64,000 bases of DNA from Ereboglobus sp. PH5-10 (GCF_029504735.1 NZ_JAQFIP010000013.1:1-64000), one strand, 5' to 3'; numbered from the stretch's first letter, positions 1,111-44,899 are shown. The notes: generated from the sequence alone by a model not told the origin. Numbers and translations: made by a program.

Positions 1111-1451
1111 TTGGGCGTTTGGCTCGCGCAATAATTACTCCGCGTTTGCACGATGGCGCGCCGCGAAACAAGTCCCGCAAGGGACGCGGGAGCGCGGCGC
1201 GCTTTCGTGCCGGTCGGACAAAAGTGCCGCAACTTATTTTTCACATCCGTCTGCGCACGGCAAAATCAGGGCAAATGCGATACCCTTCCAGCCCCTATTT
1301 TAATTCGCAATGCACCGGTATGGTGCGGGCATGAAAGCCCTAAAAAAGACATTGCCGGCTGAGGCAAGGGGAGAGGCGTCCTGCTCACAAAAAACGCAAG
1401 TGCGTTTCGAGTGCGCGCGGCATGTCCCGATTTGTTTCGCGCCGGTCGCAT

Positions 1452-1458
1452 GGGAGGT
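1452..1458 (+). promoter_or_regulatory. Shine-Dalgarno site deciding the relaxase start
   Basis: GGGAGGT lies 6 bp before the ATG at 1465, favouring that start over the in-frame codon at 1411. Confidence 0.7.
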
Positions 1459-1464
1459 ATCGTC

Positions 1465-4281
1465 ATGCTGAGTCCGAAGCCGCAGTTGAATCTCGCCAAT
1501 GCGCTGGGATATTTTCGCGAGCATCTGGCCGTTGGAGATTATTACATGGACGGTCATGTGGTCGCCGGTCAGTGGCGTGGCATCGCCGCGTCGATGCTCG
1601 ATTTGGAGGGCGTTGTCACCGAGGAAAAGTTTCTCTCGATGTGCCAGGGTATCCATCCCGACACGGGCCAGCGCCTGACGATGCGGCACAATACGACGCG
1701 CCGGGATGGCGAGCACACCGTGTCGAATCGCCGCGTGTTTTATGACTTCACGATCAGTCCGCCGAAGTCGGTTTCGGTGGTCGCGTTGTATCAAGATGCC
1801 CGCATTATTGCGCTCCACGATCACGCGACCCGTGTGATGATGGATGAACTGGAAAAGTTTGCAGAGACGCGCGTGCGCAAAGGCGGCGCGAATAGCGAGC
1901 GCGTCACCGGCGGAGTCGCCGCCGCGATGTTCCGGCATGACACGAGCCGGGAACTCGACCCCCATTTGCACACGCACTGCGTGGTCTTCAACGCGACCTA
2001 TGATTTTGCCGAGGAAAAGTGGAAGGCGCTTCACGCGACGGGCATGTATCGGGCGCAAAAATTCGCGGAAAATTTGTATTATCACGAACTGGCAAAAGGG
2101 CTCCGGCAACTCGGCTATGACATCACCAACACGCCGACGGGATTTGAAATCCAAGGGGTGCCGCAAAGCGTGATCGACCGCTTTTCCAAACGGCATCAAC
2201 AGATCGACGCGGAGACGAAAAAACGAATCGAAACAGAAGGATTGCGCGGCAACGAAAAAGCGCTGCGCGAGCAAGTCGCGCATGACAAGCGGCGTCGGAA
2301 AATCAAGAACATGCCGGCGGAGCAACTGCGGCCTCATTGGGCTGCGGAGATGCCGGAACCCGAGCGTGCCGCGCTTGCGAAAATCGGGCCGCCAAAGCTG
2401 CCGCCGCCGCTGCCGGAAACATCCGTGGGAAAATGCGGGCTGCCCCAATTAGTTGAATGGGCGGATGCTCACCTGTTTGAACGGCGTTCGGTCGTCGGTG
2501 ACTACGAGTTGATGTCGTCAGTTTTGGAGCGCGGGCGCGGTGAAAATTTTGCGCTGGCGGACTTGGAAAAAAACGTGGCGGAACGCGGATACATCCGCGA
2601 TGCGCAGTCGCGCAAGCTGACCTCGCGGGATGCGCTTTCTTGCGAATTGTCCATTGTGCTTGCCGCTCAAAACGGGGTGCGAAATCACGCCGCGTTCAAT
2701 GCGGCGCATCAACCCGCACCGTCACTTTCGGCGGAGCAACGCGCGGCGGTTTCGCGCATTTTGCGCAGCCGCGATTTTATCACGGTTTTTCAGGGCGGCG
2801 CGGGCACGGGAAAAAGCTTTGCGCTGCGAGAAGTCGTGCGGGGATTGGAAGCGGCGCGGCATCCGGTCGTCGTGATCGCGCCGCAACATCAGCAAGCGGC
2901 AGATTTACGGCGCGACGGGCTGGCCTCGGCGGACACGCTCGCGCGGTTGCTCGCGGTCGGCGCGAACGCCCGTTTGCCGCGTGGCGCGGTCGTGATTGTC
3001 GATGAGGCGGGGCAAGTCGGCGGACGCGACATGCGCGCGTTGATTGAGCGAGTGCAGGCTTGCGGCGGGCGATTGATTTTGTCGGGTGACATCCGGCAGC
3101 AAGGCGCGGTTGCGGCATCCGATGCGTTGCGTGCGATTGAGGAGCATACGAGTTTGCAAACGGTGCGTCTGGGCGCGATTCGCCGCCAAGACCCGCAAAC
3201 CGTGCAGTCGAGGGAAGAAAAGGCGTTTGTCCGAAAATACCGCGCGGCGGTGAAAGCGGCGGCGGAAGGTCGTTTGGTGGATTCGTTCGACAAACTGGAC
3301 GCGCTCGGCTGCGTGCGCGAACTCGATGTCGAAGATCGCATGGCGGAACTGGCGCGCGAGTATTGCGATGCGCTTGCCCGCAAGGAAAAGGTGCTCGCCG
3401 TTGCCCAAACTTGGGATGAAGTGCGCGCGGCCAACGACGCGATTCGCTCCCGCTTGCGGGAAACCGGAAAGCTGGGCGAAGGCGTGCCGGTCATGTCCTG
3501 GCAATCGACTGATTTGAGCGAGGCGCAAAAGTGCGACGCACGGTATTACACGCCGGATGCGCGAGTTTTCTTCGTGCGTGATTACGGGCGATTCAAGCGT
3601 GGTGATTGTTACGAGGTCGCCGGCGCCGACGAGCGCGGCGTGGCCTTGGGAAAAGACGGAAGAACCACGACCATAAGCTACCGCTATGCGGACAGATTTG
3701 TGGTCGTGAAGACGCGGCAACAAGAGTTGGCGCGTGGGGATCGGCTGCTGATGAAATTTAATGGAGACTCAATCGAAGGAAAGGCGGTTAGGAACGGCGA
3801 ACTGGTGACGATATGTCGTGTGTTAAAAGACAAAAGCATCCGGGTTCGAGACGACGAGGGAACGATAAAAACACTCTCCGCGGAGCAGCGAATGTTCGTG
3901 CCGGGATACGCAGTGACTTCGTATGCATCGCAGGGAAAAACCGTCGATACCGTGCTCGTTTCGCATGACGCCGAGCAAACGCCGATAAATCGGCACCAAT
4001 GGTATGTCGGCATCTCGCGTGCGCGGCGGAAAGTCGTCGTGTTCACCGGCGACAAGGAAGCGTTGCGCCTTAACATCGAGCGCGAATCCGACCGCGAACT
4101 GGCGCTGTCGATCAAGCCGGACGATGCGACGGTCGAGCGAATGCGCGAAAGACTTATGGAGGAGCATCAACACCGATTGTCACTGCAAGCGCGACAACGC
4201 TTGCATGAGTCAGTCAGACAGTGGGTGCCGCCTCCGCAACAACAACAAAACCATACAACAAACAGAGGAATACGACCATGA
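1465..4281 (+). CDS. MobF-family conjugative relaxase-helicase (TrwC/TraI type)
   Basis: Nicks oriT, stays covalently bound to the 5' end and unwinds the transferred strand. The protein has 938 residues with the start chosen at the ATG after the strong ribosome site. The N-terminal TrwC relaxase domain (about 1-300) shows paired catalytic tyrosines Y26-Y27 and the metal-binding 'DPHLHTH' motif near residue 168. The C-terminal half is a RecD-like superfamily 1 helicase, with Walker A 'GGAGTGKS' near 444, 'VDEAGQVGG' as motif II and the final 'WYVGISRARRK' near 848. The domain order and length match complete MobF enzymes. The gene overlaps the next small gene by 4 bp (ATGA), implying coupled translation. 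With the coupling protein at 7.5 kb and the T4SS operons it completes the DNA-processing part of the ICE. Confidence 0.95.
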   Translation: MLSPKPQLNLANALGYFREHLAVGDYYMDGHVVAGQWRGIAASMLDLEGVVTEEKFLSMCQGIHPDTGQRLTMRHNTTRRDGEHTVSNRRVFYDFTISPPKSVSVVALYQDARIIALHDHATRVMMDELEKFAETRVRKGGANSERVTGGVAAAMFRHDTSRELDPHLHTHCVVFNATYDFAEEKWKALHATGMYRAQKFAENLYYHELAKGLRQLGYDITNTPTGFEIQGVPQSVIDRFSKRHQQIDAETKKRIETEGLRGNEKALREQVAHDKRRRKIKNMPAEQLRPHWAAEMPEPERAALAKIGPPKLPPPLPETSVGKCGLPQLVEWADAHLFERRSVVGDYELMSSVLERGRGENFALADLEKNVAERGYIRDAQSRKLTSRDALSCELSIVLAAQNGVRNHAAFNAAHQPAPSLSAEQRAAVSRILRSRDFITVFQGGAGTGKSFALREVVRGLEAARHPVVVIAPQHQQAADLRRDGLASADTLARLLAVGANARLPRGAVVIVDEAGQVGGRDMRALIERVQACGGRLILSGDIRQQGAVAASDALRAIEEHTSLQTVRLGAIRRQDPQTVQSREEKAFVRKYRAAVKAAAEGRLVDSFDKLDALGCVRELDVEDRMAELAREYCDALARKEKVLAVAQTWDEVRAANDAIRSRLRETGKLGEGVPVMSWQSTDLSEAQKCDARYYTPDARVFFVRDYGRFKRGDCYEVAGADERGVALGKDGRTTTISYRYADRFVVVKTRQQELARGDRLLMKFNGDSIEGKAVRNGELVTICRVLKDKSIRVRDDEGTIKTLSAEQRMFVPGYAVTSYASQGKTVDTVLVSHDAEQTPINRHQWYVGISRARRKVVVFTGDKEALRLNIERESDRELALSIKPDDATVERMRERLMEEHQHRLSLQARQRLHESVRQWVPPPQQQQNHTTNRGIRP

Positions 4282-5357: not shown

Positions 5358-7256
5358 TTAGTCCTCATCCCGTTTTTCACTTGTCGGTGATTGTGTATTT
5401 GAATCAGCAAACTTTTTCATCCCATGTCGAAGGATTTCTAGAAATGTGTGGTTCCTACATTCGGCGTCGGCAACGATGGCATCGAATGACATGACAAATG
5501 TTGGTGTAGGAACAACCGAGCCATTTGGACGCTTTGTGGGAAACTCCTGGTAATAAACTTTCCCTCGGGAAAAGAGCGGCGCCCACTTTCGCTGCTCAAG
5601 CCGAGTCGCCATAGTGTCATTAACCTGAATAACAGCATAATACCATATGCGCTGTATATTTGGACAGTGGGCGGCAAGTTTTACCGCGCGGTCTAACAAC
5701 TGATTAATTGCGTATTCGTTTTCCTTCTCGTCGTCGGTTTTTTTCTTAATTTCGACAACAACGACATCAACGGAGGCTTCTACCGCTGGATCAGCGGAAA
5801 AAATCATGGCTATATCGGGACGTCCTTCGTCTTTGGTCGCTTCCTCATTAAGCGTAATAGCCCCTATTACGGAATCCATGCGCGCTTCGCTAAGAATGGT
5901 GCGGAAGCTCATAAACTTATCATCCAAAAGCCATGCGTTATTGCTGTAAACGTCCCGTATCAAGTCACTCTCTTCGAACTCTTGATAACGCGGGACAATA
6001 AGATTGTGAATTTCCGCTTCGGAGTTGTCGCCGGACATGTCCTTGAATTTTCGAATTATCTTGTCTCTGTATAAAATATATTCTGTCAAAGAGCGCGACG
6101 ATAGCTCCAATGATTTTTCAAATGTAGAGTCGGTTAGCTCCTCACACTGTAAAACTTCTTTTTGGGCTTTGAAAAACTTGCTTTGAGCGATGTCGAGCGC
6201 CTCATCCTTGTTGATAAGTCCAACAGTATTTTCTTCGAAAAGGCCGAGCAAATGGGGAAATTGTTTCTCAAATTGGTTTTTAGCTTCTTCGTTTTTTTCG
6301 GCTATTTGTGGAATTTTCTCTGTAAATATTTTCCCGACTTCACGACGTAATACACTTAATAGATCAGGCTCGGATATATTGTCCGGTAATATCAATTTTT
6401 GCCGTGAGGTATCCGCAGCACCTTTGAAAAGTTGGGACACAAAAAGAAAAATGCCCGAATGGTCGGGAGGCACGGCATGAGGTTGCAACAGTTTAATGGG
6501 AATAGTGCGGCCATCTATACTCACTGCGGTCAAAAGTGTGCGCTCCCCCATTCCTGCCTTTACTCGAAACCACATTTCCACGCCTTCATATGCATCAAGG
6601 AGTGGGTCTTCAATACTGACAGATTGAAGTTCAGGTAGGTCATCTGCTGTGATTGTTTCATCATCAGAGAAAAACTCTTTTTGTGTGTTACTTTCTTCGG
6701 TTTGGAGGCTGATTTTAATTAAAAACGGACGTTGAGTGCGCCTGCGCTCATGCAACGTCGGCAAAAATTGTTCAATGATTCGAGTTTTTAGCGCGCCCGG
6801 TTTTATGTCATCATAAGATTTAAGTCTTTCACCTATAAAGTTAGTGAAAACGAGTGTAGTCGTATTTGACTGAATTTTCTCCAGTTTCTCCAATTTACTC
6901 TCGTCGCGAAACGCTTCTGAGAACGTAAACTGACGCCTATTATCTCCCCACACACTGTTGACCTCAATGCGTGCAAAATACTTTAGGAATAACAATCGAC
7001 CAAGCCCCTTGTGGAATGCGTCTTGTGGCTTCAAAAGACGGGCAAACCGTTCGAAACTTTCGTTCGTAAAACCGTCTCCATTATCGCTAATGGTTATTTT
7101 AAGCGTGTCTGGTGCCGAGAATCTTTGGATTTCGATGTTAATTGAGATTTCAGAGGCGTTCGCATCCAATGAGTTTGCGACTGATTCAAAAAACACCTGA
7201 ACCAATGAGGGATTTGGAAAAAACAGCTTTACGGCGTTGGTTGTTTCGATGTCCAT
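5358..7256 (-). CDS. GHKL-type ATPase fused to a PD-(D/E)xK-like nuclease domain; candidate defence protein
   Basis: A protein of 632 residues. The N-terminus (about 1-200) is a GHKL (Hsp90/MutL-like) ATPase: N-box 'FFESVANSLDANAS', Mg-binding 'ISDNGDGF' and a glycine-rich lid 'GLGRLLFLKYF'. The middle is mostly helical. The last 160 residues contain 'RPDIAMIF' (D about 481), then 'VVVVEIKKK' (E about 502, K about 504), the layout of a PD-(D/E)xK nuclease core. Known: GHKL ATPases linked to restriction-type nucleases (prokaryotic MORC/MutL-like families) occur in restriction systems. Inferred: an ATP-controlled nuclease, probably anti-phage or anti-plasmid cargo. No methylase lies nearby. It is convergent with the gene at 4842-5345 and divergent from the coupling-protein gene. 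Confidence 0.7.
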   Translation of the reverse strand: MDIETTNAVKLFFPNPSLVQVFFESVANSLDANASEISINIEIQRFSAPDTLKITISDNGDGFTNESFERFARLLKPQDAFHKGLGRLLFLKYFARIEVNSVWGDNRRQFTFSEAFRDESKLEKLEKIQSNTTTLVFTNFIGERLKSYDDIKPGALKTRIIEQFLPTLHERRRTQRPFLIKISLQTEESNTQKEFFSDDETITADDLPELQSVSIEDPLLDAYEGVEMWFRVKAGMGERTLLTAVSIDGRTIPIKLLQPHAVPPDHSGIFLFVSQLFKGAADTSRQKLILPDNISEPDLLSVLRREVGKIFTEKIPQIAEKNEEAKNQFEKQFPHLLGLFEENTVGLINKDEALDIAQSKFFKAQKEVLQCEELTDSTFEKSLELSSRSLTEYILYRDKIIRKFKDMSGDNSEAEIHNLIVPRYQEFEESDLIRDVYSNNAWLLDDKFMSFRTILSEARMDSVIGAITLNEEATKDEGRPDIAMIFSADPAVEASVDVVVVEIKKKTDDEKENEYAINQLLDRAVKLAAHCPNIQRIWYYAVIQVNDTMATRLEQRKWAPLFSRGKVYYQEFPTKRPNGSVVPTPTFVMSFDAIVADAECRNHTFLEILRHGMKKFADSNTQSPTSEKRDED

Positions 7257-7362
7257 GGAGTCAACAAGTTATGTAGGTTGTCGGGCTAAGTTCCACTGCA
7301 AAATTCCTTTTCTTGGCACTTTTACTCGGTAGTGGCTCGGGTAACTTGGAAAATTATGTTTT

Positions 7363-7404
7363 CCCGTTTTTGTTCTCAAAAATCGCGGGAATGTCCAAGC
7401 CAAG
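7363..7404 (+). promoter_or_regulatory. Shared 42-bp control element, copy upstream of the coupling-protein gene
   Basis: Matches the copy at 27245-27286 (read on the minus strand) at 32 of 42 positions, including TTCTCAAAAA and GTCCAA. It ends 71 bp before the ATG at 7476 and points toward that gene. Confidence 0.65.
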
Positions 7405-7475
7405 GATGATGGAAACTGGCATGCTTGCGACATGGATGCACTCTTACACCGTAAGAGCGCACCATCTTTGCCATT

Positions 7476-8960
7476 ATGCCGTTACACTTGCTTCTTGTCG
7501 CTGTGAGTCTCGTATGCGCTTGGGGTGCGCTGCGAGTCGGAGTGCCTTCGTATGTCGCGATGGCGATGTCGACGGGGTTCGGCTTATTTGCCGTCTGGCA
7601 GATGGTGTGCGGAGTGCTGGCGGTGCGCAGTCGCCCGCGTGCGAAACCGATTTTGACGCTGGGCGGGTTTTCTTGGTCGCAGAATGACTTTTGTCGCGGG
7701 TGGCTCGTCACCGGCGAAACGGGAAGCGGCAAGACGCTTTCGGCGATCAATGCGATGCTCTGGCAGGTTTCGCGAAACTGTCCGCGTTGGGGCGGCATCT
7801 GCATCGACGACAAGGGACTCTATTGGGAAACACTCTCGGCGATGTTCAAGCACCTCGGGCGCGAGGACGATTTGATTTTGCTGCAAGTGCGACCGGACAG
7901 CGCGCCCGCCGATTGGGAGCCGCCACACACGTTTAATTATCTTGAGGATGCCCGCCTGCCTTTTTCGGCAAAGGCCAAGGATGTTTGCGATGTGGCCGCG
8001 TCGCTCGGGCAGGATGGCGACCAGACGTTTTTCAAGACACAGGCGGAAATTCAGATGAGCTTTGCATTTCAAGCGCTGGCGTGCGTCGGGATGCCCGTCA
8101 CGCTCGATAATGCTTACGAATTGCTCTCGTCGGATGTGATGATGAGGGAAATTGTCGGAATGTTGGACAATAAAAACACGCCGGAAGCGCGCGAGTTGCT
8201 TACTCATTACGAAACGCAAATTGCCAGCCAGCCCATCGAACAACTTGGCGGTGTGCGCGGCACGCTTGCCAATCGGCTGAAACACTTCACGCCGCTTGAT
8301 ATTGCGGAGGTGTTTTGTCCGAAAAAATCGACCTTCTCCTTTTCAGAAATCGACCGGGGGAAAGTGATATGCGTTTCGATTCCACAACGCTTCAAAACTG
8401 AACGCCGGTATATCCACACACTTCTCAAGCTCGTGTTTTATTCGCATGTGCTGCTGCGTTTCGACCGACCCTCGAAGGAACGCGCCGGAGACAACTTGCT
8501 CGTTTTATGGGCGGATGAAGCGCAAAAGATCGTGACCGCGAATCATGACGGCACGAGCGATTACAATGTTGTGGATGTGATGCGTGAAGCCAGGGCAACC
8601 GTCGTGGCCGCGACGCAAAGCTACACATCGCTCATTCCGCCGATTGGCGATGAGAAAAAGGCAAAGGTGTTCATCGCGAACATGGCAAACCGCATCATGT
8701 TCAAGGCCGCCGATGAGGAATCGGCAAAAATCGCCGCCGACACGCTCGGCAAAAAGAAATACAAGAAACGCACCTATGGCTATTCGGCGGGCAAGCGCAC
8801 GACCTCGTTTTCCGAGGAGGAAAAATATTATATCGAACCACATGAGTTTCGCCGGCTGCGGAAGTTTCAGGCTGTGGTGCAACACTGTGAATCGGGATTT
8901 CGCCGTGTGGTGCTTCCGCCGCGTGAAGCCGATGGGCGCGTGTGCGAGTGGTTTCGCTAA
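7476..8960 (+). CDS. Type IV coupling protein (VirD4/TraD/TraG-like ATPase)
   Basis: Brings the relaxase-DNA complex to the T4SS channel at the inner membrane. The protein has 494 residues. Two membrane helices lie at about 4-22 and 28-48, followed by the cytoplasmic motor: Walker A 'GETGSGKT' near 80-87 and Walker B 'LLVLWADE' near 341, then 'EARATVVAATQSY', the glutamine-containing motif typical of coupling proteins. It is short compared with F TraD (717 residues) because it lacks the long C-terminal tail. A gene for an AAA+ ATPase starts 13 bp downstream in the same direction, so the two form an operon. The upstream 42-bp control element suggests co-regulation with the T4SS genes. Confidence 0.9.
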   Translation: MPLHLLLVAVSLVCAWGALRVGVPSYVAMAMSTGFGLFAVWQMVCGVLAVRSRPRAKPILTLGGFSWSQNDFCRGWLVTGETGSGKTLSAINAMLWQVSRNCPRWGGICIDDKGLYWETLSAMFKHLGREDDLILLQVRPDSAPADWEPPHTFNYLEDARLPFSAKAKDVCDVAASLGQDGDQTFFKTQAEIQMSFAFQALACVGMPVTLDNAYELLSSDVMMREIVGMLDNKNTPEARELLTHYETQIASQPIEQLGGVRGTLANRLKHFTPLDIAEVFCPKKSTFSFSEIDRGKVICVSIPQRFKTERRYIHTLLKLVFYSHVLLRFDRPSKERAGDNLLVLWADEAQKIVTANHDGTSDYNVVDVMREARATVVAATQSYTSLIPPIGDEKKAKVFIANMANRIMFKAADEESAKIAADTLGKKKYKKRTYGYSAGKRTTSFSEEEKYYIEPHEFRRLRKFQAVVQHCESGFRRVVLPPREADGRVCEWFR

Positions 8961-36951: not shown

Positions 36952-38193
36952 TCACGCGGCACGGGAAATCGGATCGCTGGATGCAAGTGGTGCGGCCGAT
37001 GCAGGTGTTGTCGGTGCCACCGCTTTCGGCACGGCTCGCAGTTTTGGCATAATGGAGAAGAACACCTCGGCCTCGCTCTGGCTTTTCACGTCGAGGTAAT
37101 GCTTGCGAATTATTTCCTCCGAGTTTCCAGCTTGTAACGCCGTGTCGCCCATTGAGCGAAACTTCGCCACATGCATCGAAATGAATGTGTGGCGCAACAC
37201 ATCATGCGTGAGATTGAATTTTTTCGATATCCTGATCCGCAGGTATTTCATGTTGGTTATGACCACCGGATATTTCTTCAACGGATACGCACTCAACCAC
37301 GCATCCAGATTCGGCTGTATCGTGATATTTCGTTTCATATTCACCTTTGAAACCTCCGGCTCAATTCGGATGACTTTTGTATCCAGATTGATGTGCTCGG
37401 GCCTTAATTTGGCGATTTCACCCTGGTCAATATCAGGCCGGATGCCGGCAAACAAGCATAGCGCAAAATAAGAGGCCAAACGCCCTTCGTGAAATGTTTC
37501 GACATATTCCATCAGTTCAGCCGCCTGATTCGCCGAAAGCGTAGCCGCTGAACCGCGCTTATGCGCAATCCGATATTGCGGGATTTTGGCAACAGGATTT
37601 TTTGAAATCCACTCTTTATCCATGGCGAATTTTAAGAAAGTCGAAACAATGCCGCGGCGATTGTTGTGCGTTTTGAGCGTCGCGTTTCCCCGCCCGAAAA
37701 AAGTCCTGAGATGATCTGGCGTTATGTCTGAAACGAGCACATTGGGAAATGAATTACACAAATGCGTCATGTTATTTTTGATAGCCTTTATCTGTGAAAC
37801 TGAAATCAAACCCTTGGCGTGATCTTGAGCTCGTTGCGCACGGTATTCGAACACGGCATTCGTCAAAGGAATTTTGTGCTCTACCTCACGGTAGTTTTTC
37901 AATGCATAATCAACGTAGAAGGATAACGAATGATTCAGTGGTTTTATTTTCAGGAACAAAGCCTCTGCCTCGCTTTGTTGCTCCGGGGATAGAATAGTCG
38001 CTGTGGGACGCAGCCCGGAGGCAATCTGCGCCGCTTTGATTTCGAGGGTGGATTTTTCGACAACCGCTTCTTGACGGGTCTTGAAGTTTTTTCGGATTCG
38101 CTCGCCATGAAGCCAGCCACTCACACGGTAGGATGTAACGCCATTGCGGTTTTTGAATGGCTTGAGAACAAATAACGCGGTTTGTGTTTTCAT
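36952..38193 (-). CDS. int: Tyrosine recombinase (ICE integrase)
   Basis: Catalyses integration and excision at the tRNA-Ser site. The protein has 413 residues: N-terminal arm-binding part (1-70), core-binding SAM-like domain (about 110-215) and catalytic domain. The catalytic residues visible are Arg in 'FAGIRPDI' (near 250), Arg-His in 'HDVLRHTFISMH' (near 333) and the nucleophilic Tyr in 'RKHYLDV' (near 365), with 'AGNSEE' before it. The family's box-II His is shifted ('HDVLRH' instead of HxLRH) and the GHS motif reads GNS, a variant I associate with verrucomicrobial integrases. The start codon is 74 bp from the tRNA-Ser 3' end. Confidence 0.93.
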   Translation of the reverse strand: MKTQTALFVLKPFKNRNGVTSYRVSGWLHGERIRKNFKTRQEAVVEKSTLEIKAAQIASGLRPTATILSPEQQSEAEALFLKIKPLNHSLSFYVDYALKNYREVEHKIPLTNAVFEYRAQRAQDHAKGLISVSQIKAIKNNMTHLCNSFPNVLVSDITPDHLRTFFGRGNATLKTHNNRRGIVSTFLKFAMDKEWISKNPVAKIPQYRIAHKRGSAATLSANQAAELMEYVETFHEGRLASYFALCLFAGIRPDIDQGEIAKLRPEHINLDTKVIRIEPEVSKVNMKRNITIQPNLDAWLSAYPLKKYPVVITNMKYLRIRISKKFNLTHDVLRHTFISMHVAKFRSMGDTALQAGNSEEIIRKHYLDVKSQSEAEVFFSIMPKLRAVPKAVAPTTPASAAPLASSDPISRAA

Positions 38194-38266: not shown

Positions 38267-38290
38267 TGGCGGAGGAGGAGGGATTCGAAC
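38267..38290. other. Probable attachment site (att) within the tRNA-Ser 3' end
   Basis: The 3' end of the tRNA, T-arm side, next to int. The exact core cannot be set without the other att site. Confidence 0.55.
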
Positions 38291-38357
38291 CCCCGGTGAG
38301 CGTGAGCCCACGTCTGATTTCAAGTCAGGTGCCTTAAACCAACTCAGCCACTCCTCC
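38267..38357 (-). tRNA. tRNA-Ser (anticodon UGA), CCA encoded
   Basis: Complete cloverleaf of 91 nt including CCA: acceptor GGAGGAG/CTCCTCC, D-arm, anticodon loop CTTGAAA (UGA), long variable arm typical of class II tRNAs, and T-loop GGTTCGAATCC. It is the integration target of the ICE; its 3' end faces the integrase gene. Confidence 0.97.
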
Positions 38358-38551: not shown

Positions 38552-39283
38552 TTAAAACCGATACCCGATGCCCGCGACCAGCCGGCCGCCGGACAGGTTT
38601 ATGTCTTCGCAAAACTTATCGAGCTTCACCTTCGTCGCGCCGAGCGCGGCGACGGAACAGTCAACATAGAAGCGGTCGTTATTGCGGAGGATATTCCAAC
38701 GTAGGCTGAGCGTCGCGCCATACATGAAGGCGACTCCGTCATCGCTGCGCATCACGTTGCTCGCGTTGCTCACGCGCGGGTTCCTCTCCTCGCTGGCATC
38801 GATATACGCCGCGCCGACCGTGGGGCCGAAGGCGCAGGCAAACCTGCCGCTTTTCGTTTTCCACTCGTGCTGCCAGCCAAACAAAACGGGGATGACCGTC
38901 TGCTTGATTTCGATTTTTCCGTCGTGGTAAATGGTGCTGCTGCCGCTGCGATAATATGAGAAACGCCCGGTCACTTTCGGGTCCAGGTCGAAGCACGCGC
39001 CCATGTCGAGCGTGAGCCTGTCCGCCGCGCCAATATAACGGCCGCCGCGAATATTAAAACCGAGGCCGCTCAGGTCGCTGCTTATGTGCGTCAGGAGTCC
39101 CGCATCGACAAACCATTTTTGATCCGGCGTGGTTCGAGCGGTGGATTCGGCTGACGCGTCCGCCGCGACGGCGGCGGGAGCGAGCATCATCAATGCGCAA
39201 AACGCCAGTGCGACAAAGGCGAAGGCGCGCGAGTTTGCATTTTGATAGGCCGCGCAACGGCGGCGGAATTTTGGTGAAGTCAT
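38552..39283 (-). CDS. Outer membrane beta-barrel protein
   Basis: A protein of 243 residues. The signal peptide region is 'AFAFVALAFCALMMLAPAAVAA' (cleavage near 45). The mature part shows alternating amphipathic strands ('VTGRFSYYRSGSSTIYHDG', 'VIPVLFGWQHEWKTKSGRFA', 'GVAFMYGATLSLRWNIL') and ends in the strand 'GRLVAGIGYRF' with a C-terminal Phe, the outer membrane insertion signal. It belongs to the broad OmpX/OmpW-like class; substrate unknown. It is the first chromosomal gene outside the ICE and stands alone on the minus strand downstream of the response regulator gene. Confidence 0.82.
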   Translation of the reverse strand: MTSPKFRRRCAAYQNANSRAFAFVALAFCALMMLAPAAVAADASAESTARTTPDQKWFVDAGLLTHISSDLSGLGFNIRGGRYIGAADRLTLDMGACFDLDPKVTGRFSYYRSGSSTIYHDGKIEIKQTVIPVLFGWQHEWKTKSGRFACAFGPTVGAAYIDASEERNPRVSNASNVMRSDDGVAFMYGATLSLRWNILRNNDRFYVDCSVAALGATKVKLDKFCEDINLSGGRLVAGIGYRF

Positions 39284-39493
39284 GGTGTGCGGTTTTTTGT
39301 TTATTATTTGAACCCGCGCGTCGGAGTCGCGTCGTGCATCCTCTTTCCGCGGGCGTTGCGCACATTATATCAAAAACCGGTGACGGCTTAAACCGCGTGT
39401 ATCAATGAAATCTCAACGCCCCCGTGTTCGCCCGCTTTATGAATTCGCACGCAAACAGTCGTTCGCACACGAGGGCGCGCGCAAGGCGCGCCC

Positions 39494-40186
39494 CTACGAT
39501 TGATATATATAACCGGTGCCGTGTATTGTTTTTATTGTTGTGCGATCGGCATCATTCACCGCGTCGCGCAGTTTGCGGATGCACTCATCCAGCGACGCCT
39601 CGTCCCAGCCCCATTGCCTGACCAGCTCCGCCCGGCTCAGGCTGACATCCTTGTTTCGCGCAAACACCACGGCCAGGTCGAGCACTTGCGGCGACAGGCG
39701 CTTGGATTCTTTGGCTCCGGTGATCGTGGCGGTGTGCGTGCTTGTGTTGATCACGGCCCGCGGGCCGAAGGGGAATTGATTGTTTCGCGCCATTTCGCGC
39801 GCGCGGAGTTGAAACGCCTTCATTCCGCACGGTTTTCGAGTGAAGCCAGTTTTGCCATGGCCGGGCAGTTCGAGCGCGTCCGCCTCGATTTCCTCGTCGT
39901 TGCCCGCGGTGAGAAAGAGCACGGGCACGTCGGGATCGAGGCGGCGCATTTCCCTGGCGGCCAGCAAACCCGCTTTATTATTCACGCCACGGCCCCGCGC
40001 GGCGGGCATTTGCATATCGAGCACCACCAAGGCGAACCGCCCCAGCTCGAACGCGGTCAGCGCGTCGGCTTTGTTTGTCGTGCGCGTCACGGTGTAGCCC
40101 GCCCGCGTCAGCCACTCCTCCCAAAACAGGCCGAGATTCAGATCATCCTCCGCGACGAGGACCGCGCCGTTGTTTATATTATTCAT
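39494..40186 (-). CDS. OmpR/PhoB-like response regulator
   Basis: A protein of 230 residues. The receiver domain (1-125) has acidic 'AEDD' (14-15), the phosphorylated Asp in 'LVVLDMQMP' (D57), and 'FLTAGN' then 'TRKP' (conserved Thr and Lys). It carries an insertion after the phosphorylation loop ('AARGRGVNNKAGL'). The C-terminal winged-helix DNA-binding domain (about 140-230) ends 'DRTTIKTIHGTGYIYQS', the OmpR signature. Its start overlaps the histidine kinase stop by 4 bp, so both are co-translated. Targets are probably the glycosidase and repeat-protein genes of the same operon or the neighbouring outer membrane protein gene; this is inference. Confidence 0.92.
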   Translation of the reverse strand: MNNINNGAVLVAEDDLNLGLFWEEWLTRAGYTVTRTTNKADALTAFELGRFALVVLDMQMPAARGRGVNNKAGLLAAREMRRLDPDVPVLFLTAGNDEEIEADALELPGHGKTGFTRKPCGMKAFQLRAREMARNNQFPFGPRAVINTSTHTATITGAKESKRLSPQVLDLAVVFARNKDVSLSRAELVRQWGWDEASLDECIRKLRDAVNDADRTTIKTIHGTGYIYQS

Positions 40187-41925
40187 GTCTGTTTATTATT
40201 ATTTGCCAGCGACAGGATGAAGACGTTTCCGCCCTCGCCGTCGCCCGGGGTTTCATGGGCAAGATCGCCGCCAAGGGAGCGGGCCAGTTTTCTGCACAAC
40301 GGCAAACCGATGCCGTGGCCGCGCTCATCATCCTTGGGACGCCAGCGGGGTTTGAAAATACGTCCGAGTTCGGCGCCCGAAATGCCGGGACCGTGATCGC
40401 GAACACGCAGCTCAATCATGCCCGTCGCCGCGTTTTCCCGCAGGACTAACTCCACCATGCGATTGTCCGCCGGCGCGCGCAGGCAGGCGTTCTCGATCAG
40501 GTTTCGCAGGATGATGGAAATCGCGGTTTCGTTGCTCGCAAGGCGGACAGGCTCCCCGGGAAAACTCGACCGGAATCCCATTGGGATTCCCGCCCTTCGC
40601 ATGGCAGCAGTGAACTCATCCAGCAATTTTCCCGCGACTTGGCCGACATCGACATTTTCCGTCCACAGTTTTCCGCCGCGCATGACGCGCGGGAAAAAAT
40701 CCAGGACAAACGCCACCGTCTCGGAAAGCCGCCCGGACGCGTAATAGATCATCGCGGCCCGCTCCTTTGTCAGATGCTCAACGTCGGCGTCCGGTGGCAG
40801 CGCATCCGGGTCGGTGCAGCATAAAATTTCCTGCACGTCGGTTCGCATCTCGTGCGAGGCGTAGTCCGTGACGGCCGCGATGATTTCGTTTTCGCGCATC
40901 CGTTTTTGAAAACCGAGCAGCAGCAGGATTCCCAGCGACGCCGCGAGCACCACGAGCAGCGATGCGCTGATGTATAATGCTTCCCCGGAAAACACCGCGC
41001 CGGCATCGGGGGTGCTTTGCGCGGCGGCAACCCTCCAACCGGGAAGCAGCTCGTCGTGAATCGAAAAACCGCCGCCGCCGTCCGTGAGCAATTGATAACG
41101 CCCGCCGCCTTGCGTCTCCGCCGGGAGCGCGATGGAAAGCAGGCGCGCGAGCTCGTGCAAATCCACGCTGACGGCCAGCACGATGTCGTCATCGCACATG
41201 CGCCACGCAAAAAGTCCGCCGGGCGCGCCGTTCCAGCCTGCGCGCTCGACGAAGGGAATGCCGAGCCGCCGCCGACGCTCGGGCCAGGTTTCCCTTTTTG
41301 TATAATCATCGCTTGGCGGCAGCGCGCCTACGTTGCCGGTCGCGATGCCATCGGGCCCGGGTTCCCCCGCATCATCGCCGCGCGCGTGCCACGGAGCGCG
41401 AGCGGCGGCGGTGCGCAATTTTTCACGAAGCGGTTCCCATGCGGTGACGGTGGCGGATGAATCCGCGTGCGCCGGGATTTTTTCGGCAACGGCTCCGGAA
41501 TGCCACGGCGTTTTTGAAAGCCAGTCTGTCATCATCGGCGCCGGCGCGATGGCTGCGGCGCCCGGGTCCGGCACGCCGAGCGCGTTCACAAGCACGGCGT
41601 CGGCGATGAGGGGATTCACTTCGCGCCAGCGTTCCAAAAAAGCGAGCGTGCCCTCGCGCGGCACGGCGTTGAGCGTCGCGGTGAGCGCGCCTTGCACGTC
41701 CGAAAAAAGCACTTCCATCAAGCTGGCGGAGAGCTTGGCGCGGTCGGCGATGGCGGCGGCGCGAAGCTGCGCCTGGCGTTGCGCCTCCGCTGCATCATGC
41801 GCCCGGTTTTGGCGCAGCAACACAAGCATGACGACCGCGCCCGTCACGATCAGCGCGACGAACAACCACGACGCGAACGGCGTCAAAAACAAGCGCTTAA
41901 TTTTTGCCTCGAAGTTCCTTTTCAT
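40183..41925 (-). CDS. Membrane sensor histidine kinase
   Basis: A protein of 580 residues with one helix at about 15-38 ('FASWLFVALIVTGAVVMLVL'), a periplasmic sensor of about 280 residues without a recognised ligand fold, and a second helix at about 318-340 ('ISASLLVVLAASLGILLLLG'). The cytoplasmic kinase part has the phosphorylated His in 'SHEMRTD' (near 359), 'LIENACLRAP' (N-box), 'VRDHGPGISG' (G1) and 'GHGIGLPLCRKLARSLGG' (G2). Co-translated with the response regulator. Its start overlaps the glycosidase gene by 29 bp, so sensor and hydrolase belong to one operon; the signal may be a glycan fragment. Confidence 0.92.
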   Translation of the reverse strand: MKRNFEAKIKRLFLTPFASWLFVALIVTGAVVMLVLLRQNRAHDAAEAQRQAQLRAAAIADRAKLSASLMEVLFSDVQGALTATLNAVPREGTLAFLERWREVNPLIADAVLVNALGVPDPGAAAIAPAPMMTDWLSKTPWHSGAVAEKIPAHADSSATVTAWEPLREKLRTAAARAPWHARGDDAGEPGPDGIATGNVGALPPSDDYTKRETWPERRRRLGIPFVERAGWNGAPGGLFAWRMCDDDIVLAVSVDLHELARLLSIALPAETQGGGRYQLLTDGGGGFSIHDELLPGWRVAAAQSTPDAGAVFSGEALYISASLLVVLAASLGILLLLGFQKRMRENEIIAAVTDYASHEMRTDVQEILCCTDPDALPPDADVEHLTKERAAMIYYASGRLSETVAFVLDFFPRVMRGGKLWTENVDVGQVAGKLLDEFTAAMRRAGIPMGFRSSFPGEPVRLASNETAISIILRNLIENACLRAPADNRMVELVLRENAATGMIELRVRDHGPGISGAELGRIFKPRWRPKDDERGHGIGLPLCRKLARSLGGDLAHETPGDGEGGNVFILSLANNNKQT

Positions 41926-43150
41926 GTTCCGCCGCCTTCCATAATCGCATGATCACTCGCGCCGCCTGCTTGGGTTGTCCGTCCGCGGTGAAAATGCCCA
42001 GATGACTTTCGAGGCCGATGTTCGGCCCCGAATCGAAATCGCCCTTCCACGCCTCGTCTTTCAGCGAAAAAACATAGCCGCCCGCGCCGCTTCCGGTGAA
42101 GTTGGACTCGATCTCGGCCCACATTTTTTCGAGCCACGCGGCCTGGAGTGCGCTGGTGTCGTTGCCGCGTCCGTCCATCGAGCTGCGTCCGAATTCAGAG
42201 AGCACGACGGGCATGGGCGCCGCGCGCGTCAGCGACTCCCAATCCTTGTATAATGCGCCGAAGCCGGGGCCGCGGTATATATTAAGCATGACCATGTCCA
42301 ATCCGGGGATGGCGCGGTATTCGAGCATTTCCGCCTCGCGTGGCAACTCGCCATGGACAACCGCGGTCGGTCGCGAACTCACGGCCTTCGCGTTTTTCAC
42401 CGCGTCGGCGAGGATGGCGAGCCACCTGCCTTTGTCGCCCCCAAACCACTCCGCGTATTTATAATTATACTCATTGCCAAACGCCCACGCGAGCACGGCG
42501 GGGTGCGAGGCAAAGGCTCTTATATATTCCATATAAAACGCCTCGCGATACACGCGCCCCGTGGCGTCGTCGCGGATACCCCCGACAATGTCGCGCGCGG
42601 AGTCGAAGCCGACGGTGACGGAGATCCCCGCCTCCGCCAGCTTGTCCAGCATGCGCTTGGTTTTTTCGTAATCGAGCTCGACTGTCTCCGCGCCCTCCTT
42701 GTAGGCGGCGAACGGCCTGAATGTCCGGATCGAGTTTGCGTGAATCGCCTTCAACAACTCCAAGTCGCGGTCGAGGTTTTCATAAAACGTGAGGCCGTTG
42801 GCATCGTTGGAGTAACACACGCCTTTTATTATATAATTCCCGGACGCGTTTTTATCATGATCGCGCGTGACGATTATTTTGCGACCGTCGATTTTTACGG
42901 ATGCGAAACCGTTCCCGGCGGAAGCCGTCGTCCGGTGCACGGTGACGATTTCGGAGCCTGTAATGGCTTTCGCGAGGGTGGGCGCAACGGAGGCGACAAC
43001 CAGAAGCGCAATACAAAGTGATGTTATTAGAATACGCGGAGCGACTGGGAGCGCCGGCTTCCAGCCGGCAGACGAAGTATCGCATCCTCTCATTGCTTTC
43101 GAATTTGCCGGCAAGATGCCGGCGCTCCCAGTCGCTGGCGCGTTTTTCAT
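41897..43150 (-). CDS. Exported clan GH-A glycoside hydrolase (GH2/GH5-like TIM barrel)
   Basis: A protein of 417 residues. A hydrophobic export signal ('ILITSLCIALLVVASVAPTLA') comes only after about 38 residues encoded by a palindromic repeat. The barrel starts 'KGVCYSNDANGLTFYENLDR'; catalytic acid/base Glu in 'WAFGNEYNYKY' (near 224) and nucleophile Glu in 'PVVLSEFGRSS' (near 317) fit a retaining clan GH-A enzyme. The exact family and substrate cannot be set from sequence alone. The start overlaps the stop of the repeat-protein gene (ATGA), so the two are co-translated. If the repeat is a late insertion, the original start lay nearer to the export signal. Confidence 0.85.
   Translation of the reverse strand: MKNAPATGSAGILPANSKAMRGCDTSSAGWKPALPVAPRILITSLCIALLVVASVAPTLAKAITGSEIVTVHRTTASAGNGFASVKIDGRKIIVTRDHDKNASGNYIIKGVCYSNDANGLTFYENLDRDLELLKAIHANSIRTFRPFAAYKEGAETVELDYEKTKRMLDKLAEAGISVTVGFDSARDIVGGIRDDATGRVYREAFYMEYIRAFASHPAVLAWAFGNEYNYKYAEWFGGDKGRWLAILADAVKNAKAVSSRPTAVVHGELPREAEMLEYRAIPGLDMVMLNIYRGPGFGALYKDWESLTRAAPMPVVLSEFGRSSMDGRGNDTSALQAAWLEKMWAEIESNFTGSGAGGYVFSLKDEAWKGDFDSGPNIGLESHLGIFTADGQPKQAARVIMRLWKAAEHEKELRGKN
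43041..43135. repeat. Paired palindromic (REP-like) element inside the 5' end of the glycosidase gene
   Basis: Arms 43041-43058 and 43118-43135 are perfect 18-bp reverse complements, each followed inward by a GCCGGC palindrome. It encodes residues resembling 'SAGILPA...GWKPALP', a string seen in many mis-extended proteins where such repeats are translated. Confidence 0.8.
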
Positions 43151-44634
43151 GATTCCTCCAAAACGGTCAGTTTTGTGAAGCGCGGATTGTTGTTGTTTCG
43201 TTTGTTGAGCGGCACGGGGAGATGACTCGTGCTCTCGCCAAAATCCACCGCGATCTCGCGAACCGCGCCGCCGTTGCCCAGCCCGACAAGCGCGCCCTCG
43301 AAATAGCGCGCGGTTTTGTTCAACGAAAATTTCGCGGTCTTTCCGCCCGGCGCGGCGTCCACGATTTTTTCGGAGTTCGATGCGTAGATTGTTTTCCCAT
43401 TTTCAAAAACCACGCGCAGCAGAAAACTCACGTCCTCGCCGGTGTTGAAGCACGACGCGCCATCAAAGTGCAGCCGCAGCGTCGTGTTTTTTCCCGACAG
43501 CCTCAGTCCGCGCGCGCCCGTGAAAACGGCCACGAGCCAATTCGGGCCGCCATAGTAGGCGGGCGCGACATACTCCCTCGTTTGCGCGCCGGCCGCCGGT
43601 TTGGCGGGTTGCGCTTGCGGCACGGCGGATGCGCCTTGCGCTCCCGCAACGGGAGAAATGTCCAGGCTGTTGAAGCGCACGTCGGCGGTGTTCTTTTTGT
43701 TGAGGCTCCACGTTCCGCGTCCGTAGGCCATCGTGGATTCGCCGAAGTCAACCGCCACTTCCTTCAGCTCGCCCAAGCCGTCCACGACCGCCTCGAAGCC
43801 GCCGCCCTTCCGCTCCATCACGGTGACGCCGCCCTTGCGACGCGCGACCTCGGCGCTGTTGCTAAGAAAAACCGTGCCGCCGGTCTTGAACACGAGACGG
43901 CAGAGAAAATTCTGCGCCTGCGCGCCGCCCCGATACACGGAGCCGCCGTCGAAGCCGAGCCTGACCGTCGCGCGCTTGCCCACGGTTTTTCCGCGCGCGC
44001 CGGGCCACGCGGCGACGGACCAATTCGCGCCGGCGTAGTAGGCCGGAATGCCGAAGGACAACGGCGCCCAATCCGAAACCGCGCCGCCATTGCCAGCCTC
44101 GCCGGCGGCGCTTGCGCCCTCGCGCGGGATGAACCGCAGCGACGTGAAGCGAGGATCGTTAGTGTTGCCCGGATTCAGTTCGCCGGCGGAGTAGTGCACC
44201 GTGCTCCGCCCGTAATCGACCGCCGCCTCCGCGAGCACGCCGCCGCCCGGAAGGATTCCCTCGAAAACGCGCTCCTTTTTTTGCATCAAAATCGCGCCGG
44301 CCTTCGACGCGGCGACCTCCGCGGAGTTTGTCAGAAAAACAAACCGTCCACCGATTCGCACGCGCAGCAGGAAGTTGGGGCCGGCGCCGGTGTTGTAGGG
44401 CGACACCGAGTCGAAGCCGAGCTGCACGATGGAACGGTCGATACGGCTTTTCTTCAACTGAATCGCGGGCCAGCCGGCGCTCTGCCAGTTGGCGCCCGCC
44501 CAGTTTTCGATGTCGGGAAAAGTGCTGTCGGTTTCCAGCGAGACGCCGTCATCGGCGCGGAGCACGCCGGCCAGGACAACCAGCGCAAACAGCGCGCGCA
44601 AAAAAACGCCGCGGACGGATGTGATTTTTTTCAT
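43147..44634 (-). CDS. Exported protein with three tandem copies of an unknown ~130-residue domain
   Basis: A protein of 495 residues with signal peptide ('GVFLRALFALVVLAGVLRAD'). Three units start near residues 42, 190 and 350, each with the pattern 'Y..ANW..A..PGARG', 'TVRLGFDG.S.Y', 'NFL.R..F..G...F.SNSAEV', 'F......L..VAVDFGEST' and 'N..N..RF.SL'. They are clearly related and probably beta-sandwiches. No known family is recognised. The gene overlaps the glycosidase gene by 4 bp, so a carbohydrate-binding role is a reasonable inference. Pro/Ala linkers separate the units. It is the first gene of the four-gene operon with the two-component system. Confidence 0.8.
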   Translation of the reverse strand: MKKITSVRGVFLRALFALVVLAGVLRADDGVSLETDSTFPDIENWAGANWQSAGWPAIQLKKSRIDRSIVQLGFDSVSPYNTGAGPNFLLRVRIGGRFVFLTNSAEVAASKAGAILMQKKERVFEGILPGGGVLAEAAVDYGRSTVHYSAGELNPGNTNDPRFTSLRFIPREGASAAGEAGNGGAVSDWAPLSFGIPAYYAGANWSVAAWPGARGKTVGKRATVRLGFDGGSVYRGGAQAQNFLCRLVFKTGGTVFLSNSAEVARRKGGVTVMERKGGGFEAVVDGLGELKEVAVDFGESTMAYGRGTWSLNKKNTADVRFNSLDISPVAGAQGASAVPQAQPAKPAAGAQTREYVAPAYYGGPNWLVAVFTGARGLRLSGKNTTLRLHFDGASCFNTGEDVSFLLRVVFENGKTIYASNSEKIVDAAPGGKTAKFSLNKTARYFEGALVGLGNGGAVREIAVDFGESTSHLPVPLNKRNNNNPRFTKLTVLEES

Positions 44635-44899
44635 GAGGAAGACTTTCTATGACGCATGGGTTTTCTCCAGTGTGAAAAGGCGGCGGGGCGAGGAGGCGGC
44701 CCTGCGCCATTCGACGCAAAAAGCGGGAACGCGCAAAGAATAAAACAAACGCCCGAAACGCACAACCGCCCCCACTCAATGATTTCTCAACGCTCCCGCC
44801 CCCGACGCCACGCCCGCATCCGCCCCACCCCGCCGAACGCGCTCCCCGCCCGCGGCGCGATTCATTTCGATAAAATAATCTTCCCCCCGTTCCAAGCCC

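Follow-up and report, generated by a model that had tools for sequence, protein, structure and literature searches.

The locus under study lies in a 64,000-nucleotide stretch of Ereboglobus sp. PH5-10 (NZ_JAQFIP010000013.1:1-64000, hereafter the window), in which four consecutive genes on the minus strand, numbered 1 to 4, have overlaps of 4, 29 and 4 bp, as a sequence-only reading of positions 39494-44634 had described and as was confirmed in the open reading frames. Gene 1 (43147-44634) encodes an exported protein of 495 aa composed of three homologous units of about 135 aa, as delimited by its reading frame and the unit alignments, and gene 2 (41897-43150) an exported clan GH-A glycosidase of 417 aa, recognised by PF02836 and its catalytic glutamates. 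Gene 3 (40183-41925) specifies a membrane histidine kinase of 580 aa (HATPase_c, 2.3e-15, and alignment), and gene 4 (39494-40186) an OmpR-type response regulator of 230 aa (Response_reg, 7.1e-13; Trans_reg_C, 1.2e-8). The module extends past these limits to include gene 5 (P0005, minus strand, 38552-39283) and two promoter sites at 39402-39416 and 44776-44790. Gene 5, recognised by its linkage, encodes an exported 243-aa protein with no family match, Pfam barrel domain profiles included, which from its length, composition and C-terminal phenylalanine is probably a small outer-membrane barrel. All five genes gave dN/dS ratios of 0.16-0.25 against the closest relative, G002, and so are under purifying selection and are not chance reading frames.

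The start of gene 2 at its ATG is supported by a GGAGG located 4 nt upstream. Its N-terminal leader reads through a 97-bp palindromic, REP-like element (43040-43136, no strand assigned) with arms of 31 nt that are 90% complementary. The idea that the overlap between genes 1 and 2 is an artefact of this palindrome was dropped because the GGAGG precedes the ATG, and it is also countered by G077, in which the two genes are close and the palindrome is absent. At the junction of genes 1 and 2, the palindromic, REP-like elements differ from genome to genome (43040-43136 in the window, 7195-7274 in L037, and the spacer in L039); the gene 2 frame of both the window and G002 runs through the junction palindromes, resulting in a longer leader.

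A probable integrative conjugative element, spanning approximately 1411-38193 of the window, is located at a tRNA-Ser gene (38267-38357); tRNA was the sole match of the Rfam search. The putative gene content of the element includes a TrwC relaxase (1411-4281), an RND efflux pump, an outer-membrane efflux protein and a P-type ATPase. Its integrase-like gene (36952-38193), assigned by eye and having no Pfam match, has a low GC content of 0.48 and is 99.9% identical to that of G002, the adjoining operon being 91-93% identical.

The exported pair

The three units of gene 1 (44119-44517, 43645-44052 and 43150-43569, all on the minus strand) share 47, 35 and 41% identity in pairwise comparison, with BLAST E-values from 1.5e-31 to 2.7e-20. 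The earlier statement that the repeat domain is unassignable stood in searches of Pfam, NCBIfam and the PDB, where gene 1 found no sequence match, including none to any described carbohydrate-binding module (CBM) or lectin family, and a profile of the unit returned nothing below an E-value of 0.35 against the PDB. The structural model of gene 1 is all-beta, its beta-sandwich units having cores near pLDDT 80. A Foldseek search with the three-unit model against the PDB and viral libraries retrieved generic jelly-roll sandwiches only, whose TM-scores over the query stayed below 0.2; these structural matches included laminin LG and a cycloalternan-forming enzyme module. Being exported, built from all-beta sandwich units in tandem and encoded beside a glycosidase, gene 1 resembles CBMs and jelly-roll lectin-like domains, yet unlike the members of those families it has neither a family sequence match nor a family-level fold match and is unfused to an enzyme. 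Glycan binding is predicted for it from the modelled fold type and the gene company. As judged by sequence comparison, the domain family is new to the databases and papers searched here, and its travelling with one glycosidase offers a concrete route to its ligand.

Gene 2 scored 29.2 bits against PF02836 (cut-off 21), and its acid/base E227 (in GNE) and nucleophile E319 (in EFG) are invariant both in the cluster and in distant relatives. A profile including distant family homologues, which are single-domain, GH72-like, or fused to family-2 glycosyltransferases, matched structures of GH158, GH2 and GH72. With an acid/base glutamate following an asparagine, a nucleophile glutamate and a TIM-barrel profile all present, gene 2 is classed by profile and residues as a clan GH-A glycosidase. 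The TIM barrel, the GNE acid/base and the E-[FY]-G nucleophile are shared with GH158, GH72 and the catalytic domain of GH2. Unlike in GH2, however, the barrel stands alone, only a leader of approximately 60 residues preceding it in place of the N-terminal sugar-binding and Ig-like domains, which are absent from gene 2, and the protein is too distant to be assigned to a single GH family. Its substrate is probably a beta-glycan.

The two-component pair and the distribution of the cluster

Genes 3 and 4 carry the features of an OmpR/PhoB two-component system, namely an ATPase domain and a phosphoacceptor histidine in the kinase, and a receiver aspartate and C-terminal winged helix in the regulator. 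H358 of the kinase, within SHEMRT, and its N and G boxes are invariant in the orthologue alignment, and HATPase_c (PF02518) was matched in all six kinase orthologues; the Pfam HisKA model left the window kinase unmatched although the H box is present. In gene 4, both PF00072 and PF00486 scored above cut-off, and D14, D15, D57 and K118 are invariant. The model of the whole kinase reached a mean pLDDT of just 48.7, at which the periplasmic sensor fold is unreadable. Other Opitutaceae have a kinase with different gene neighbours to which gene 3 shows a distant relationship that extends to the sensor region; gene 3 therefore looks recruited and diverged. A homologous kinase/regulator pair in G000:C5 (L118, 3775-9658) lies beside a serpin and a von Willebrand-type protein, and similar kinases in other Opitutaceae adjoin a superoxide dismutase and a Fur-like gene, these neighbours having been named by eye.

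Genes 1-4 are syntenic with the window in G002, G077, G100, G080, G604 and G850, giving seven Opitutales genomes in total, and each of the seven has gene 1, gene 2 and the kinase gene in succession, followed by regulator sequence. The linkage of the sensory pair with the exported glycan-related pair, on which the sequence-only reading depended, is thus maintained down to 36-59% identity per protein. The carrier contig of G100 is the same as JAIRTK010000038 and that of G604 is JAITHA010000081, G828 being evidently the same genome as G604; two of the carriers are named 'Opitutaceae bacterium Ct408_bin80' and 'Puniceicoccales bacterium Pc512_bin4'. The habitat of this bacterial group may be the insect gut.

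The exact overlaps are retained in G002 alone, the other carriers having short gaps or smaller overlaps. In G604, the regulator gene is separate from the rest and has its own promoter site. Two draft MAGs have a broken regulator frame: G850, whose regulator is the most diverged at 43% identity, shows an in-frame stop, and in the G077 contig the frame is truncated. In G000, G002 and G604, the position of gene 5 is downstream of the regulator gene, and in G850 its orthologue (L133, 9095-10054) is relocated upstream of gene 1; that the linkage survived this rearrangement argues for a shared function.

The expected conservation of the neighbourhood in Opitutaceae was borne out in part: the genes are linked wherever the cluster occurs, but it occurs in only five of 252 family members. 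A search with the unit profile found these five carriers, from two genera, in the family, and another family of the order contributed a further genus with the cluster (G604 and G850) and a fragment in G869, while a phylum-wide sample of 387 other genomes yielded no match. Neither of the two outcomes named beforehand as counting against the sequence-only reading, a well-known family for the repeat domain and unlinked genes in relatives, was encountered. The G869 fragment (L134, 1-507; G869:C64) is a lone gene 1 unit, 36% identical, situated at the edge of its contig and followed by neither a glycosidase nor a kinase gene; judging by this single unit, the domain may be present outside the cluster as well.

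A conserved direct repeat at the predicted promoters

A promoter is proposed for the operon and for gene 5, both on the minus strand. The former combines a -10 element TATTCT (44737-44742) with the putative regulator site TTGAGAAATCATTGA (44776-44790), which is invariant in six loci and lies 33 bp from the -10, and the latter a -10 element TATAAT (39364-39369) with the putative site TTGAGATTTCATTGA (39402-39416) at 32 bp. When the upstream regions of the six loci were aligned, one invariant 16-mer was revealed at the gene 1 promoter, TTGAGAAATCATTGAG, containing a direct repeat of TTGAG with an 11-bp period; across the cluster promoters, the motif reads TTGA-N7-[TC]TGA. The ArcA box is likewise a direct repeat with a centre-to-centre distance of 11 bp, a spacing also found in PhoB boxes (PMC3798270).

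The 3.58-Mb genome has three exact copies of TTGAGANNTCATTGA and no more: one precedes gene 1, one gene 5, and one an unlinked gene for a 225-aa barrel-like protein (site at L091 7843-7857, gene at 7047-7721), the PF13505 match of which (3.4e-4) falls below cut-off. G002 has the equivalent three exact sites, G604 carries three copies (before gene 1, the separate regulator gene and gene 5), and G051, a member of the same genus lacking the cluster, has no exact site. Among the 252 family genomes, the exact motif is near-restricted to those bearing the cluster, being present in all five of them and as a single copy in six of the 247 others, where the matches are mostly inside reading frames and none shows the promoter layout. 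The exact motif is absent from G850, in which the promoters of genes 1 and 5 instead carry TTGAT-N6-CTGAT, 32 bp from TATCAT and TATTAT, respectively.

The spacing between site and -10 is 32-33 bp in 13 of 14 promoters when upstream stretches of 300 bp are scanned, compared with a Markov-shuffle mean of 0.00; the fourteenth site, that of the G604 regulator, lies 310 bp upstream and thus outside the scanned stretch, with the same 32-bp spacing. No further arrangement of a site and a -10 at 32-33 bp was found in the window. Not every site is an independent case, given that the gene 1 promoters share descent and the promoter of the unlinked barrel-like gene resembles a copy of that of gene 1. The latter two promoters are near copies over approximately 130 bp, a likeness that suggests growth of the regulon by promoter duplication. 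A one-mismatch motif at G000:C6:166620, also present in G002, was rejected as a target, because the beginning of a long antisense reading frame overlaps it and no gene start lies downstream. Sites with two mismatches, 35 in G000 against 8 in the reversed control, were too noisy and were set aside.

The predicted regulon and its alternatives

Because the direct-repeat site precedes the operon, gene 5 and a further barrel-like gene, positive autoregulation by the operon's own regulator is the likeliest circuit, and on balance we favour a cell-envelope regulon in which a two-component system activates itself. Its kinase would detect an extracytoplasmic signal and phosphorylate the OmpR-type regulator, which is predicted to bind the TTGA-N7-TTGA repeat of 11-bp period, 32-33 bp upstream of the -10, and to act there by activation in preference to repression. 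It would thereby switch on its own operon, yielding more regulator together with the three-unit beta-sandwich protein and the GH-A glycosidase, and would also activate the genes of small putative outer-membrane barrels, namely gene 5 together with, in this genus, a single unlinked gene. The exported pair would then bind and cut or remodel a glycan, most likely a beta-glycan, either at the cell surface or within the periplasm. The earlier proposition that the sensory system and the exported pair are made together is supported by the overlapping genes, the shared predicted promoter site and the linkage in relatives.

A nutritional sense-and-digest system, following the sequence-only reading's suggestion that products of the operon's own hydrolase might be sensed, in which the hydrolase frees oligosaccharides from a polymer held by the repeat protein, the barrels admit them and the kinase senses them in a positive loop resembling that of polysaccharide utilisation loci (PULs), is judged an unlikely account. 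The predicted co-expression of hydrolase and sensor from one operon is in its favour, as is the potential of the regulon's small barrels to serve as oligosaccharide channels, but neither the operon nor the other exact sites include SusC/SusD, a TonB receptor, an inner-membrane importer, a further glycosidase or a catabolic gene, and the absence of importer and catabolic genes from the regulon weakens a purely digestive role and leaves product sensing a hypothesis and nutritional digestion one of several options. The locus is comparable to the Bacteroides PULs with hybrid sensors in that a glycan-active enzyme is co-regulated with a two-component sensor, and differs from them in its separate sensor and regulator, its single glycosidase and the lack of SusC/SusD and of an importer; no SusC/SusD-like pair or other importer was found among the operon genes and their neighbours.

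That the direct repeat serves another regulator, for example a different OmpR-type protein, with the cluster's own pair acting elsewhere, seems improbable. The genome does have other OmpR-type pairs, including two in L118, yet of the six other genomes of the genus or family that share the site, five have the cluster as well, and neither is present in G051. The regulator gene of G604, moreover, has its own copy of the site, and in G850 the site and the regulator have both diverged. Gene overlaps are common in bacteria and typical of compact genomes, so that the four genes could in principle be chance neighbours of no shared function; this we consider very improbable indeed, as it is contradicted by the linkage in seven genomes, the retention of gene 5 after rearrangement and the shared promoter sites.

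The self-activating regulon, as favoured here, is a circuit of a known kind, whereas the databases and papers searched here yielded neither the repeat domain nor the gene combination; the literature search uncovered no paper on such an operon and no characterised Opitutaceae regulon of the kind. Autoregulated OmpR/PhoB systems such as PhoB, ArcA and KdpE share with it a receiver and winged-helix regulator, a membrane kinase, a direct-repeat site of 11-bp period near the promoter and the inclusion of the regulator in its own regulon, the last two being predictions here; unlike theirs, its targets comprise genes for an exported repeat protein and a glycosidase as well as barrel-like genes, and the HisKA model finds no match in the window kinase. 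A bolder version, regarded as rather doubtful, would make it a compact envelope glycan-feedback regulon of a new kind, combining a new exported three-unit glycan-binding family confined to a few Opitutales lineages, a regulator and operator that co-diverged (TTGAG/TTGAG to TTGAT/CTGAT), a fixed promoter geometry and a glycosidase whose product is the kinase ligand. The analysis defines a small candidate regulon in Opitutaceae, with a predicted operator sequence.
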